A stretch of 48,899 bases of DNA from Kordiimonadaceae bacterium (GTDB lineage: Bacteria; Pseudomonadota; Alphaproteobacteria; Sphingomonadales; Emcibacteraceae), in contig JABJKT010000211.1 in assembly GCA_018660225.1 (NCBI GenBank), positions 1-48,899 on the forward strand. The letters run 5' to 3'. Below the pieces are notes generated by a model that was not told where the DNA came from, searched no databases, and saw nothing but the letters and a program-made list of their open reading frames with translations. Below, piece by piece: positions 6,453 through 48,100 of the stretch. Both the position numbers and the translations under genes were made by a program. How positions within the stretch are numbered: position 1 is the first letter of the stretch; the number at the start of each line of letters is the position of its first letter.

Positions 6453-6592
6453 TATTTATTTATTTAAAAAATACTCTTTTTTGAAAATGAATGCAAATTA
6501 TAGAAACGAGCAAAGGAGCGCGGCTCCAGTACTTATGAATATCAACGGAGTGAGATCAATGCGGTAAGCATAGCTCTCTAACCAATTATTGA

Positions 6593-6670
6593 TCTTCCCC
6601 CCACCTCGCATTGGCTCGGGCGGCCAGTCGGCCTTGCCTCCGCCCAATTGGGCGTCGGATTGGATCATAA
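6593..6670 (-). repeat. Structured dispersed repeat, copy A (partial)
   Basis: Shares the core of copies B, C and D, in the same orientation as D. Reading the minus strand: TATGATCCAATCCGA, stem CGCCC/GGGCG, stem GGCC-gact-GGCC, CCCGAGCC, GCGAGGTGGGGGGAAG; it then stops, lacking the distal hairpins present in the other copies. The flank at 6582-6594 (CCAATTATTGATC) resembles the inverted terminal GATCATAAATGG on the other side, so a short-inverted-repeat internal-deletion form is possible. It fills the gap between the pseudogene scar and grxD; the remainder, 6453-6592, is featureless. Confidence 0.8.
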
Positions 6671-6684
6671 ATGGGAAAAAAGCT

Positions 6685-13280: not shown

Positions 13281-13432
13281 TATGATCCAGACCGAAGCCC
13301 ATATTGGGCTGAGGCAAAGGTGACCACCCGCCCGAGACTTTTCGAGGTGGGGGGAAGGTCGCGAGACCGGGGGGCGAGCCCCCCACCAAATTAAAACCTA
13401 AGTTCTCAGGCCCCCAATTTCCGCAGAGCGGG
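13281..13432 (+). repeat. Structured dispersed repeat, copy B
   Basis: Successive stems: AGCCC(A)/(T)GGGCT (13296-13310), GGT-gacc-ACC (13319-13328), GGTC-GCGA-GACC (13357-13368), GGGGGG-CGAG-CCCCCC (13369-13384), CCTAA/TCAGG with one mismatch (13397-13410), CCGC-aga-GCGG (13421-13431). It begins TATGATCC like copies A, C and D. A 42-nt core is identical with copy C. It lies just 3' of the cytochrome gene (minus strand) in the same direction as copy C. Confidence 0.9.
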
Positions 13433-13461
13433 AAAACAAGTGTATTTTACCCCATCAATTA

Positions 13462-13893
13462 TCAATAAGTAGACTTATGACAACTGACGCAAGCACCGGT
13501 AATGCGGCCCGCCATATAATAACGGTCATGCTCCGCGTCCCACTTGGCTCTGCCGACGTCCGATAGGAATTTTGCCATAGCGTCCAGCAAAAACGGATGC
13601 TTGGAATTCAGATCACCAGATTGAAGCGTCTGTCCGATCCGCTCGATATCATCAAGGGTATCAACGATAGACTGCTGAACGGGCTCTCTCTCATCATATT
13701 CAATCGCAAGATCCCTATCTAACCCCTGTAAAGCAAAAGCAAGCTGGTGCATGCGCGACCGCAAATCGGCACCATCAACATAATCAAATGGCGGCGCATC
13801 AGCCACCTGCGGTTACCCCCCACTACCACCACTCGTACAAGACACAACAAACAAACTAAACAAAGCACCCATAAACACTAATAAATATTTCAT
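13462..13893 (-). pseudogene. c-type cytochrome lipoprotein interrupted by a stop codon
   Basis: From the ATG at 13893 the frame encodes a lipoprotein signal: MKYLL, hydrophobic core, lipobox VVSC with Cys19, then a Gly/Ser linker. Codon 27 (13813-13815) is TAA, after which the same frame continues for 117 codons (PQVADAPPFDYVDGADL...) to a C-terminal CVSCH heme-binding site followed by KSTY. A helical domain with a C-terminal CxxCH resembles cytochrome c'/c-556-type proteins. A GTG at 13806 could start the second part, but without signal peptide the heme could not be attached in the periplasm. So this is either a recently disabled gene, a base-call error or a stop that is read through. Direct repeats B and C flank it. 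Confidence 0.75.
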
Positions 13894-14027
13894 CTCAATT
13901 CCTTCTTTTTTTGTAAAGTATTACAATTATTAACGTGAGAACACTATAGCGCGCTGAAAGCAGCCGCAGAATGACGCAGGTCAAGTATTGATTGAAAGTG
14001 TAAGGTAAGAGGGGCAAGACCAATATA

Positions 14028-14181
14028 GCCAATTATGATCCAATCCGAAGCTTAGGCTGAGGCAAGGGCGACTGCCCTCCCGAGCTTATGCGAGGTGGGG
14101 GGAAGGTCGCGAGACCGGGGGGCGAGCCCCCCATCAATTAAATAACCTGAGTGCTCAGGGTTACAATTTTTTCGGAGAAGA
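14028..14181 (+). repeat. Structured dispersed repeat, copy C
   Basis: Same layout as copy B: GCCAATTATGATCCAATCCGAAG, a weak AGC/GCT stem, GGGC-gact-GCCC (14066-14077), GGTC-GCGA-GACC (14105-14116), GGGGGG-CGAG-CCCCCC (14117-14132), CCTGA-gtgc-TCAGG (14145-14158), and a short TTC/GAA-type distal stem replacing CCGC/GCGG. The start of the sequence (first 23 nt) is identical to copy D. It occupies the space between the cytochrome gene and the NTF2-like gene; 13894-14027 shows nothing recognisable. Confidence 0.9.
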
Positions 14182-14656: not shown

Positions 14657-14750
14657 CGTCACTCGCCGACTTGATCGGCGAGTCTATTGTGAATGTGGTA
14701 AAGTCCTCGCTTTATGAATGGATCCGCCGATCAAGTCGGCGAATGACGAG
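14657..14750. repeat. Inverted pair of short palindromic (REP-like) elements
   Basis: Unit 1 (14657-14687) is CGTC followed by ACTCGCCGA-CTTGA-TCGGCGAGT. Unit 2 (14716-14750) is the same type in reverse: CGCCGA-TCAAG-TCGGCG with GGATCC and ATGACG flanks. A third unit lies at 47871-47905. Such GTCATTNCC...CTTGA...GGNAATCC palindromes are widespread between genes in alphaproteobacteria. The pair lies 20 nt beyond the trpE stop and may act as its terminator or as an mRNA-stabilising structure. Confidence 0.8.
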
Positions 14751-14769
14751 GGGCAGTGGTACTTCTTCT

Positions 14770-16329: not shown

Positions 16330-18252
16330 TTATTCAAGTGGTGCGGCAATTTGATTAAGCGTCGCTTGAACATTGGCATTATTAACAACGACCGGTAAAG
16401 CATCAAAAAGATGAACGATAAAGGCGCCCATCATATCATTTTGATAAGATGTTTTGATCTGGTCTTTGGTTTGGGTGATGGCGGCTTCATCAATTTCTTC
16501 GTTAAAGCTGCGACTTTTCACCCTTACAACAACATATCCGTCGCCATTGGCGGCCGGGATTGTTTCAATGTCACCAATGTTCTGGCCAAATATGCTTGCG
16601 TGGATATCTGTGCTGACGGCGTTATCTGTGTTTGCCCGCGCGACGGAAACCTCATTAACGATCTGCTCAGCGGTCAGGCCTTGAAATTCTGAAAGTGCCT
16701 TCGCGTCATTTTCACCGAGGGTGTAATTTTCAGTAATTTTCGTTGCCAGCTCAGATGCGAGGTCTTCTTTTCGCATCGCTGTCCAGTCGTTACCAACGTC
16801 TTCTTTCACGTCTTCAAAATCGCGTAGCACGCTTGGGATAATATTATCAACGCTCAGCATATAAAATTTGTTTGCGATACCTTCAAAAAGCTGAAGTTCA
16901 CCGCCGACTTGACCGGCAAATGTATTATCAAGAAATTCAACAATGAGCGGAAGGTCCAGTGATGCTGTGCCGTCCGGTGTCATACCTTCGATACTGACGG
17001 CGGACACTTTTTTAAGCTCAAGTGATAATGTTTCGGTGATTTCTTCAATCGGTGCACCGGCCGCAAGTTCATCATCGATTTTATTACGAATATCAAAAAG
17101 CTCATCTATCGCCTGATCCTGCTGAAGATCATTGATAATAGCCGCTTTTACATCTTCATAATTTTCTGTTGATCCCTGAATAACATCATTCAGTTTGAAA
17201 ATATAAAAACCAAATCCGCTTTCAATCGGCGCGGTATATCCACCATCAGCAAGATCAAAAAGAGCGGTTCCGGCTTCTTCGCCGTAAAGTTCAGCAAAAT
17301 CATTTTGTGTCTGTGCTTCAAAGGTTGCATTTTCAGCGCTTTCACCGGTTCTGTCCATGATCACGTCTGCAAAGCTTTTACCGCCTTCAAGTTCAGCGTA
17401 AGCCGTATCAGCGGCCTGTTGATCATCAAGCAGCATTTGAACAAAGCCACGTTCTTCATCCTTGGTATATTCAAAAAGTCTTGCTTCATATGATGCAAGC
17501 GCCTGTTCTTCGCTAACGTCGATATTATTTGCGAAATCATTGGCTGATATTTCAAAATAGCTCACATCGCGGTATTCAGACGCCATGTAGCTTATGGTGT
17601 TTTCGTCGTAATGGGCTTTTAAAATTTCATCTGTCATTTCACCAATGCTGGTCATGGTGCTGGCGGGGATGGAAAGAATTTCTGCTACGCGAAGCTCGGA
17701 AGCATATTTACTAAGAGTGTCCGTTGTTATTTCAGGGGCATCAACTGTATTAAGGAGTGCCTCAACAAAACTGTTACGGGCCATGTCGCTTCTTATTATT
17801 GTTTCGAATTCTTTTGACGAATAACCCTGGTTGCGGGCGAACTGGTCAAAAAAGCTGCGATTGAAGACACCTGTTTCATCCTGAAAAACAGGTATGCTAT
17901 ATATATAATTACGAAGTTCGCCATCGGTTACGCGTAGGCCAAGATTTGCCACTTCAACGTCATAGGCGATTTGTTCAACCATTCTATTGACGGTTTGGGA
18001 GCCGATAATTTGTGCGGCGAGCTCTTTTGTAATTTGATCACCGGCTCTTTGTTGGAGCTGAAGAAAATCATTTTCAAAGGCGCGGGCTAATTCATTAGGT
18101 GTAACTTTGCGGTCACCGACTTCTGCTACACCGCTTGTGGAGAGCGTCGATAACGGGTCACCAATACCCCATAAAGCGAAACTGAATATGAGAAGTACCA
18201 AAAGTATTCCGGCGACCAGCGAACCAGCGCCATTTCTTATAAATTCAAACAT
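16330..18252 (-). CDS. ppiD: Membrane-anchored periplasmic chaperone, PpiD/SurA-like
   Basis: 640 residues with one N-terminal membrane anchor (about 11-30, LVAGILLVLLIFSFALWGIG), then a SurA_N-type chaperone region (VGDRKVTPNELARAFENDF..., RVTDGELRNYIYSIPVFQ) and a parvulin-like domain (about 260-370, ending in GFGFYIFKLNDV), followed by a long C-terminal region. PpiD works at the Sec translocon exit, helping newly exported proteins to fold. Isomerase activity is doubtful because PpiD-type parvulin domains are often inactive. It is divergent from tpiA and stands upstream of trpE, an order common in alphaproteobacteria. The GxGDP(L)STLS segment after the anchor is typical of the family. Confidence 0.92.
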   Translation of the reverse strand: MFEFIRNGAGSLVAGILLVLLIFSFALWGIGDPLSTLSTSGVAEVGDRKVTPNELARAFENDFLQLQQRAGDQITKELAAQIIGSQTVNRMVEQIAYDVEVANLGLRVTDGELRNYIYSIPVFQDETGVFNRSFFDQFARNQGYSSKEFETIIRSDMARNSFVEALLNTVDAPEITTDTLSKYASELRVAEILSIPASTMTSIGEMTDEILKAHYDENTISYMASEYRDVSYFEISANDFANNIDVSEEQALASYEARLFEYTKDEERGFVQMLLDDQQAADTAYAELEGGKSFADVIMDRTGESAENATFEAQTQNDFAELYGEEAGTALFDLADGGYTAPIESGFGFYIFKLNDVIQGSTENYEDVKAAIINDLQQDQAIDELFDIRNKIDDELAAGAPIEEITETLSLELKKVSAVSIEGMTPDGTASLDLPLIVEFLDNTFAGQVGGELQLFEGIANKFYMLSVDNIIPSVLRDFEDVKEDVGNDWTAMRKEDLASELATKITENYTLGENDAKALSEFQGLTAEQIVNEVSVARANTDNAVSTDIHASIFGQNIGDIETIPAANGDGYVVVRVKSRSFNEEIDEAAITQTKDQIKTSYQNDMMGAFIVHLFDALPVVVNNANVQATLNQIAAPLE

Positions 18253-24405: not shown

Positions 24406-25791
24406 ATGTCTGTAGAAATTCTACTCCCTGCAATGTCACCAACGATGACCGAAGGTACTGTCGCTAAATGGACGGTATCTGAAGGGGACAAATTAGCACC
24501 CGGCGATATTATCGCTGAAATTGAAACCGATAAAGCAACGATGGAACTTGAAACCGACGAAGAAGGTGTGATGGGGAAAATCCTGGTTGATGCCGGTGCC
24601 GAAGGCATCGCCGTTGGAACACTTATCGCGGTTATACTTGAAGATGGCGAAGATGCCAGCTCTATTGAAGGGGTGACGGCGACGATCCATCCAACACCAG
24701 CAGTGCCGCCAACATCTATTGCAGCAGATGCACAGGACCTTGCACCAAAACCGGTTGCTGCCGTGCCGCAAGATGATGATATTCCCGATGATGTCACATA
24801 TAAAAATATGACGGTGCGTGAAGCACTCAGAGATGCTATGGCTGAAGAAATGCGCCTTGATTCTGATGTGTTTGTTATGGGTGAAGAAGTGTCTGAATAT
24901 CAGGGTGCCTATAAGGTTACCCAAGGATTGTTGCAGGAATTTGGCCCTGAACGTGTGATTGATACACCGATAACAGAACATGGCTTTGCCGGGCTTGGTG
25001 TCGGTGCGGCGATGGCTGGACTAAAGCCAATTGTTGAATTTATGACCTTCAACTTTGCCATGCAAGCTATTGATCAGATTGTTAATTCTGCGGCCAAGAC
25101 AAATTATATGTCCGGTGGTCAGATCAGATGCCCGATCGTATTTCGTGGACCTAATGGTGCCGCCTCACGTGTTGGCGCACAGCATTCACAAAACTATGCA
25201 TCATGGTATGCCCATGTTCCGGGACTTATCGTTATAGCGCCTTATTGCGCCATTGATAGTAAAGGACTTCTTAAATCGGCGATTAAAAGCCAGAACCCGG
25301 TCATTTTCCTAGAAAATGAAATTACCTATGGTTATAGCTTTGATGTGCCGGAAATGGATGATTATACAATTCCTATTGGAAAAGCCAAAATTGTCCGCGC
25401 TGGTGCTGATGTAACGTTGGTTAGTTACTCTATCGGTGTTAAATTCTCGCTTGATGCCGCTGAAAAACTTGCTGAACAGGGAATTGACGCGGAAGTGATC
25501 GACCTTCGGACTATTCGTCCGCTTGATATGGAAACGGTTATAGAATCCGTCAAGAAAACGAACCGCGTTGTTTGCGTGGAAGAGGGCTGGTCGGCTTGTT
25601 CTGTGAGTTCGGAAATTTCTGCGCGCCTTATGGAAGAGGCTTTTGATTATCTTGATGCACCGGTTATGCGGGTTACCAACGAAGATGTGCCGATGCCTTA
25701 TGCGGCAAACCTTGAAAAACTGGCGGTTGTTAGTGAAGATCGCATCATAGATACGGTAAAATCCGTTTGCTATAAAGAGGGAGACGCATAA
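24406..25791 (+). CDS. pdhB: Pyruvate dehydrogenase E1 beta subunit with lipoyl domain
   Basis: 461 residues. An N-terminal lipoyl domain (1-80) carries the attachment Lys43 in [12 protein letters not shown]; a Pro/Ala-rich linker (about 88-127) joins it to a transketolase-type pyrimidine-binding domain ([36 protein letters not shown]) and the C-terminal E1-beta domain. A lipoylated E1-beta is a known feature of alphaproteobacterial PDH. It overlaps pdhC by one base (TAATG), so translation is coupled. Confidence 0.96.
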
Positions 25792-27053
25792 TGGCTATAG
25801 AACTTCACATGCCGGCTCTTTCCCCGACTATGGAAACGGGTACATTGGCAAAATGGCTTGTTAAAGTGGGCGATACGGTTGAAAGCGGCACGATGATTGC
25901 TGAAATTGAAACCGATAAAGCAACAATGGAATTCGAAAGCATTGATGACGGTGTTGTCGGTAAAATTCTTGTTGAAGAAGGTGCTGAAAATATACCCGTT
26001 GGTCAGTTGATTGCGGTTCTGCTTGAAGAAGGCGAAGATGCATCGGTAGCGGATGATGTTTCCGCTGCGGAGCCTGTTGCAGTTAAAGAAGAAGTGCCTG
26101 CACCTGTAGGCGCACCTGTAGTAGCTCCGGCAGCTCCTGCACCCGTAGCGGTAGCGGCTCCTGCGCCAGCGCCGGTTGTTCAGGCTTCAACGGGTGATAG
26201 AGTATTTGCATCACCACTTGCCAGGCGTATTGCCGAGCAAAGTGGTTATGATATTTCGGCGATTTCAGGCACTGGACCGCGTGGCCGGGTGATCAAGCGC
26301 GATGTTGAAAGCTATACACCTTCTGCTGCGGCTTCTGCTGTGGCTGGTCCAGCGCCAATTGACGGTGATGCACCATATGAAGTGATTAAACTAAGCAATA
26401 TGCGCAAGGTAATTGCCAAACGACTTACGGAATCAAAACAAAATGTTCCGCATTTCTATCTTAGTGTTGATATTGAACTTGATAACTTGCTTGCGGCTCG
26501 TAAAAACCTTAACGCCATGTCGGATGAGTATAAAATTTCCGTCAATGACTTCGTGATTAAGGCCTGTGCTATGGCCCTGATCAAAGTTCCAGAAGCAAAT
26601 GTTCAGTTCCACGGTGATGTGATGCACCAATTTAAACGCGCAGACATCTCCGTTGCGGTTGCTATTGAAGGCGGTCTTATTACGCCGGTCGTACGCGGTG
26701 CTGAACAAAAAGGGCTTCGTGCTATTTCTGATGAAACAAAAGACCTTGCAAAACGTGCTCACGCGGGCAAGCTTGCACCTGAGGAATATTCTGGTGGGAC
26801 TTTCTCAATTTCCAATATGGGAATGATGGGTATTAAGCAGTTTGATGCGGTTATTAATCCGCCGCAAGCAGCAATCCTTGCGGTTGGTTCCGGTGAGCAG
26901 CGCCCCGTTGTTAAAAATGGTGAGCTCTCTGTTGCGACGGTAATGACCGTAACGCTTTCCTGCGATCACCGTGCCATTGATGGTGCAGTTGGTGCGGCTT
27001 ATCTCGGCGCGCTTAAAATGTTCCTTCAGGAACCATCAACGATGTTACTGTAA
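25791..27053 (+). CDS. pdhC: Dihydrolipoamide acetyltransferase, PDH E2
   Basis: Transfers acetyl from lipoamide to CoA and forms the core of the complex. 420 residues: a single lipoyl domain (1-80, Lys43 in [12 protein letters not shown]), an Ala/Pro/Val linker, a peripheral-subunit-binding domain (about 138-172: ASPLARRIAEQSGYD..GTGPRGRVIKRDV) and the trimeric catalytic domain with HxxxDG at 393-398 (DHRAIDGAVG). The AP-rich linker repeats are typical. pdhB contributes an additional lipoyl domain to the complex. Confidence 0.96.
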   Translation: MAIELHMPALSPTMETGTLAKWLVKVGDTVESGTMIAEIETDKATMEFESIDDGVVGKILVEEGAENIPVGQLIAVLLEEGEDASVADDVSAAEPVAVKEEVPAPVGAPVVAPAAPAPVAVAAPAPAPVVQASTGDRVFASPLARRIAEQSGYDISAISGTGPRGRVIKRDVESYTPSAAASAVAGPAPIDGDAPYEVIKLSNMRKVIAKRLTESKQNVPHFYLSVDIELDNLLAARKNLNAMSDEYKISVNDFVIKACAMALIKVPEANVQFHGDVMHQFKRADISVAVAIEGGLITPVVRGAEQKGLRAISDETKDLAKRAHAGKLAPEEYSGGTFSISNMGMMGIKQFDAVINPPQAAILAVGSGEQRPVVKNGELSVATVMTVTLSCDHRAIDGAVGAAYLGALKMFLQEPSTMLL

Positions 27054-47870: not shown

Positions 47871-47905
47871 CGTCATTACCCGACTTGATCGGGTAATCCA
47901 TTCGG
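47871..47905 (+). repeat. Short palindromic (REP-like) element, third copy
   Basis: CGTC followed by ATTACCCGA-CTTGA-TCGGGTAAT and CCATTC: a perfect 9-bp stem with the same CTTGA loop and flanks as the units at 14657-14750. It lies 25 nt beyond the ugpC stop and may serve as the operon's 3'-end structure. Confidence 0.8.
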
Positions 47906-47941: not shown

Positions 47942-48100
47942 CCGCTCTGCGGAAATAGCCTTCCTGAGCACTTAGGTTTTTTAAATAATGGGGGCTCGCC
48001 CCCCGCGCTCGCGCGCTTCCCCCCACCTCGCATAAGCTCGGGCGGCCGCTTGGCCTTGCCTCAGCCCTTTAGGCGGGCTTCGGATTGGATCATAATTGGC
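47942..48100 (-). repeat. Structured dispersed repeat, copy D
   Basis: Opposite orientation to copies B and C. On the plus strand: CCGC-tct-GCGG (47942-47952), CCTGA-gcac-TTAGG (47963-47976), GGGGG-ctcg-CCCCC (47990-48003), GCGC-TCGC-GCGC (48005-48016), CGGGC-GGCC-gctt-GGCC, AGCCC/GGGCT (48063-48079) and a terminal GGATTGGATCATAATTGGC identical with the start of copy C. The fourth stem is GCGC/GCGC here but GGTC/GACC in B and C, so pairing is kept while the bases differ. Confidence 0.9.

Follow-up and report, generated by a model that had tools for sequence, protein, structure and literature searches.

What kind of element is the chain of hairpins that recurs in the intergenic DNA of this Kordiimonadaceae bacterium (Emcibacteraceae), and does the pairing of its stems reflect selection on a folded strand? 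The window, here the whole stretch analysed, is contig JABJKT010000211.1 of assembly GCA_018660225.1 from position 1 to 48,899 (48,899 nt). The sequence-only reading had recognised four copies, A to D, with A and D inverted relative to B and C, and direct reading, repeat comparison and a covariance model all place the copies there (Table 1). Among the long repeats of the window, inverted and direct, they are the main ones; they align well with each other and, as had been claimed, are intergenic in all four cases. A covariance model of the 55-nt core has exactly four matches in the window, at 66 to 77 bits, with the next best at 6.7 bits.

Table 1. Repeat copies, their hairpins and neighbouring features in the window
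Feature	Position	Strand	Description
Copy A	6591-6674	-	Only the 5' part, with truncation 3' of hairpin 3; core 6604-6658, 77.4 bits
Copy B	13281-13432	+	Full monomer, G-run/C-run 3' variant; core 13292-13347, 66.3 bits
Copy B hairpin 1	13292-13314	+	CCGA-AGCCC..GGGCT-GAGG; tandem G.A mismatches within the paired stem; covariation-supported
Copy B hairpin 2	13318-13329	+	AGGT GACC ACCC; covariation-supported
Copy B hairpin 2 loop	13322 and 13324	+	Covarying positions, alignment columns 36 and 38
Copy B hairpin 3	13332-13347	+	CCGAG ACTTTT CGAGG; covariation-supported
Copy B hairpin 4	13357-13368	+	GGTC GCGA GACC; read from the sequence
Copy B hairpin 5	13369-13384	+	GGGGGG CGAG CCCCCC; read from the sequence
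Copy C	14028-14181	+	Full monomer; core 14045-14095, 66.9 bits
Copy C hairpin 4	14105-14116	+	
Copy C hairpin 5	14117-14132	+	
Copy D	about 47942-48100	-	Full monomer; core 48026-48083, 75.6 bits
Gene between copies B and C	13462-13938		Like a 148-aa CXXCH lipoprotein of relatives
Second dispersed hairpin repeat	14657-14688, 14717-14763, 16895-16926, 47871-47902		CGTCATTACCCGACTTGATCGGGTAATCCATT and variants
156-nt stretches	24501-24656 and 25886-26041		Inside neighbouring ORFs 24406-25791 and 25791-27053

The variant stems described earlier are also present in the letters: the closing pair of stem 1 is A-T in copies B, C and D and C-G in A, stem 2 takes the forms GGT/ACC, GGGC/GCCC and GGCC/GGCC, and stem 4 is GGTC/GACC or GCGC/GCGC with a GCGA loop between. 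Across the class, the unit is ~100 nt long (~105 nt in genome G603) and has about four hairpins, a fourth hairpin domain lying 3' of a core of three (hairpin 1 - CAAG - hairpin 2 - GC - hairpin 3). In Emcibacteraceae-type copies, the same CCGA..GAGG frame, with tandem G.A mismatches, recurs in hairpins 1 and 3. In distant copies, hairpin 3 is CCGAGCTTATGCGAGG, followed by AAGCC AAG, a hairpin 4 with a GGAY loop and then CGCCCGGCGTTTGAGGG - AAACAAAA, a 3' domain that differs from the GGGGGG..CCCCCC domain of the window copies, and GTAGGAAA lies ~20-30 nt upstream only in a few Sphingomonadaceae-like copies. The window copies are monomers without terminal inverted repeats, and neither they nor the G603 units have a GTAG tetranucleotide by the hairpin.

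Other features of the window were noted in passing. The gene between copies B and C is interrupted, close to its 5' end, by an in-frame stop behind a G-run and is possibly a pseudogene or an assembly error; in three relatives (G008, G010, G011) the homologous DNA does not adjoin trpE. The second dispersed hairpin repeat, which also occurs elsewhere in the same genome and is separate from the multi-hairpin family, looks like a CGTC-tagged REP (PMC3733652). The two 156-nt stretches are 75% identical, and the neighbouring ORFs that contain them are probably paralogous genes.

As four window copies are too few to prove covariation, the proof comes from 53 non-redundant cores from many genomes, aligned without reference to structure. 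Over the 15 pairs, standard pairs occupy 97% of cells, and cells with both partners changed number 83, compared with 25 +/- 3.4 in shuffles; when partners are slid out of register, pairing falls to at most 43%. RNAalifold, unprompted, returned the same three hairpins. Under a tree-aware null, for which substitutions were replayed along a FastTree tree by our own script modelled on R-scape (100 replicates, with the tail extrapolated), significance is reached by four structure pairs, with each of the three hairpins represented (E 0.002-0.016), and the structure accounts for six of the seven best pairs. The seventh lies inside the hairpin-2 loop, which is GACY or AAGY, and this covariation (E = 0.02; Table 1) suggests that the loop forms a recognised structure. 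The covarying stems of the sequence-only reading are thus borne out, and compensatory stem covariation is real. Folding energy was rejected as structural evidence: the hairpin chain is missing from some minimum-energy folds of single copies, and z-scores relative to dinucleotide shuffles were -2.3, -2.4 and -0.2 for RNA and -2.7, -0.6 and +0.4 for DNA, with copies C and D unexceptional. As single copies are weakly, or not at all, more stable than shuffles, the structural case rests on the covariation.

A covariance-model search, which had been proposed as a check, found many copies in this and related genomes. In the genome that contains the window (G000; 3.04 Mb in 219 contigs, 94.6% complete), at least 19 were counted, copy numbers per genome being lower bounds throughout. 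Here, copies are often paired 0.7-1.5 kb apart (contigs C135, C118, C73, C8, C102 and C145), and such pairs enclose one or two small accessory genes. The core is present in 113 of the 299 genomes sampled from the order and in 47 of 100 from one large family, which we take to be Sphingomonadaceae-like on the basis of Sphingobium plasmid matches and general knowledge. At the level of the class 15 of 289 genomes match, the core being present in further alphaproteobacterial orders, and in a sample of 398 genomes from the phylum all 11 that match are within the Alphaproteobacteria; some of the isolated weak matches in distant families could reflect chance. A strict pattern identified 34 stretches in named genomes; every one of these carries the label Alphaproteobacteria or Proteobacteria, or the name Emcibacter or Iodidimonas. 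Phages gave no match, nor did IMG/VR viral contigs searched with the strict pattern, and no plasmid carries a window copy; copies of the kind found in relatives occur on a few large replicons of Sphingobium, and Azospirillum gave one weak match.

In some relatives, the copies have a higher-order arrangement. Many of those in the near-complete genomes G588 and G603 are head-to-head dimers of ~240 bp in total, with inverted arms, a short spacer and outer ends TTTTGTTT..AAACAAAA, and there are near-identical copies within G588. The G603 loci retrieved hold 38 arms of ~105 nt, which form eight head-to-head dimers (spacer 29-40 nt) and leave 22 other arms, 21 solitary and one in direct tandem behind a dimer. 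Elsewhere there are tandem arrays with ~97-nt steps, or inverted pairs. No head-to-head dimer was found in G000, so a dimer model is, for that genome, transferred from its relatives.

Comparison of related genomes revealed sites that are filled in some and empty in others. The 23S-5S rRNA spacer carries a copy, in one orientation, in all three operons of G015 and likewise in G030, two copies in the opposite orientation in G019, and one in G011; the copies lie at different places in these filled spacers, and the spacers of G013, G014, G016 and G017 are short and without a copy. The G019 spacer (L203 1620-2100) also has a different tandem repeat, ACGAGCTCAAGGCTTACTTGGTTTTGTATCCAGTGTT. At a second site, which lies between genes, a dimer is present in G603 and G632, and G633 has a 70-nt gap between matched flanks with no dimer. 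As presence and absence differ between species, insertion is the simplest reading, with deletion possible at each site, and mobility is inferred from this comparison. There was no consistent target-site duplication at the junctions inspected by eye, namely those of the rRNA spacers, of the G603/G632/G633 site and of the G603 dimers.

The locations of 176 non-redundant copies were evaluated relative to simple gene calls and, together with reading by eye, indicate a preference for the 3' ends of genes, for terminators and for convergent regions. Where a region held a single copy and both its neighbours were called, it was convergent in 25 cases and divergent in 6, as raw counts. The core often starts 25-45 nt after the upstream stop codon, and reading by eye placed several copies immediately after an intrinsic terminator or a tRNA gene. 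Forty-seven copies fall inside ORFs picked by the simple gene caller, and many of these ORFs look spurious. An apparent orientation bias of 86:30 with transcription was rejected, as it mostly reflects convergent regions, in which the gene lying 5' of the element always has the element's orientation; in tandem gene contexts of single-copy regions, 21 copies are oriented along and 16 against transcription, with no significant bias.

The search for a mobilising enzyme covered two families, Y1/RAYT transposases (PF01797) and reverse transcriptases (PF00078), and linked no transposase to the element. The RAYT-type transposase that the sequence-only reading had proposed to look for is absent both from G000, with control genomes positive, and from complete genomes with many copies. 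PF01797 had no match in 17 of 20 copy-bearing genomes, including the complete or near-complete G588, G603, G630, G144, G254, G199 and G256. Some relatives do carry Y1 transposases, and across 61 relatives there is no evident association, judged by eye and not by a statistic, between Y1 presence and copy number. Reverse transcriptase is absent from G000, G588, G603, G630, G144, G102, G165, G120 and G117. Both candidates were rejected as mobiliser, given their absence from key genomes: Y1/RAYT transposases are excluded as the mobilising enzyme, reverse transcriptases likewise in several genomes, and with RAYT absent the family is, strictly, no REP/RAYT system.

The copies are best explained, with a probability that we put at about 0.62, as a non-autonomous, REPIN/MITE-like mobile palindromic repeat of the Alphaproteobacteria. 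The REP/MITE-like dispersed family that the sequence-only reading envisaged is supported by the 19 or more copies of G000, the empty sites, the inverted dimers of relatives, the tree-aware covariation and the lack of an Rfam match; its other suggestion, an untranslated RNA element, is less likely. A folded single strand, probably of an inverted dimer, would be recognised by an enzyme acting in trans, allowing the element to spread; selection on the fold within the mobile lineage would then generate the compensatory changes, and insertions would be tolerated chiefly behind stop codons and terminators, where they cause little damage. The window monomers would be solo arms or belong to a lineage that propagates as monomers. 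We would only tentatively suggest that these multi-hairpin foldback elements are propagated across the Alphaproteobacteria by an enzyme or replication process outside the known palindromic-repeat routes, with neither Y1/RAYT nor reverse transcriptase.

The same observations have to be weighed under other explanations. An RNA element of mRNA 3' ends, folding to protect, terminate or regulate the upstream mRNA with host selection maintaining the fold, would accommodate the clustering of copies at a short distance behind stop codons, the conserved single-stranded linkers and the covarying hairpin-2 loop; strict linker conservation (CAAG, CCGA..GAGG) and a broad range are also expected of a functional RNA and so count against a mobile repeat. 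This explanation is nevertheless unlikely, as orientation in tandem contexts is not significantly biased, copies also lie antisense within rRNA spacers and are gained and lost between species, and an A-rich tail behind a hairpin does not make an intrinsic terminator. With three terminal pairs dropped, changes of inner pairs to G.T outnumber those to A.C by 15 to 5 (p = 0.04), the direction predicted for RNA folding of the written strand, whereas over all 15 pairs there are 20 and 12 such events and, in a control set of 28 tRNAs from the same loci, 15 and 0; as the outcome depends on terminal pairs picked after the counts were known, it does not decide between RNA and single-stranded DNA.

Quasi-palindrome correction, in which template switching during replication repairs imperfect hairpins, is a known mutational process that generates compensatory changes, here without selection on a fold, and the family is palindromic and GC-rich. 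Such correction would remove the tandem G.A mismatches of hairpins 1 and 3 (CCGA..GAGG), and their persistence in nearly all Emcibacteraceae-type copies, together with nearly invariant linkers and the appearance of copies at new sites, makes this explanation very improbable. Like REPINs (PMC3116915), the family has inverted doublets, lies between genes, is present in many copies and has a similar fold, and Y1 transposases are present in some relatives, as would be expected of a true REP/REPIN family whose RAYT has since been lost or lies in uncovered parts of the genome. That history appears improbable, more so than an RNA element, given the general lack of Y1 in copy-bearing genomes, complete ones included, its lack of evident association with the copies, and arms of ~100 nt with no GTAG tag.

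Short palindromic repeats are common in bacteria and, to our knowledge, only the GTAG/RAYT type has a plausible mobiliser. The present family occurs widely within one class, has several hairpins with strong covariation and is polymorphic among related genomes, its hosts lacking the known enzymes, and the near-identical copies and dimers of G588 and G603 make a search for the mobiliser practical. With the covariance model, annotators could recognise a sequence that breaks assemblies and that, in rRNA spacers and at the 3' ends of genes, goes without a label. The sequence-only reading did not recognise the family. No Rfam 15 family matches the window or any copy tested at gathering or permissive thresholds, the weak hits being due to chance. 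No published description was found in the open-licence literature, searched by topic and by sequence, and an earlier account elsewhere is possible. The family is a RAYT-less, multi-hairpin, REPIN/MITE-like one, found neither in Rfam nor in the literature searched.

REPs are units of 20-40 nt with one hairpin and a GTAG tag, associated with RAYT (Y1) transposases, and REPINs are REP doublets that form hairpins (PMC3116915, PMC3733652). Like these, the present copies are dispersed intergenic palindromes, single, in clusters or in inverted doublets with a short spacer, that are sited at gene ends and can fold as a single strand; the doublets are frequent in G603 and occur in G588, but not in G000. 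The arms, in contrast, are ~100 nt long with about four hairpins, lack the GTAG tag, and occur in many-copy genomes with no Y1/RAYT gene. CGTC-tagged REPs are dispersed palindromes as well, and the authors who described them found no transposase dedicated to them (PMC3733652); here, however, there is no CGTC at the unit ends and the multi-hairpin unit is longer. Prokaryotic MITEs (reviewed in PMC10969869) are short, non-autonomous elements whose ends are inverted and which insert beside genes, and the arms of the dimers resemble such ends in acting as long imperfect terminal inverted repeats. As differences from MITEs, no consistent target-site duplication was evident at the inspected junctions, no parent insertion sequence or autonomous copy was noticed in passing, and the internal hairpin order is conserved across orders. 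With Rfam RNA families it shares covarying hairpins and conserved linkers. In arrangement and placement, the family is like known mobile palindromes, while falling outside the definition of a REP.
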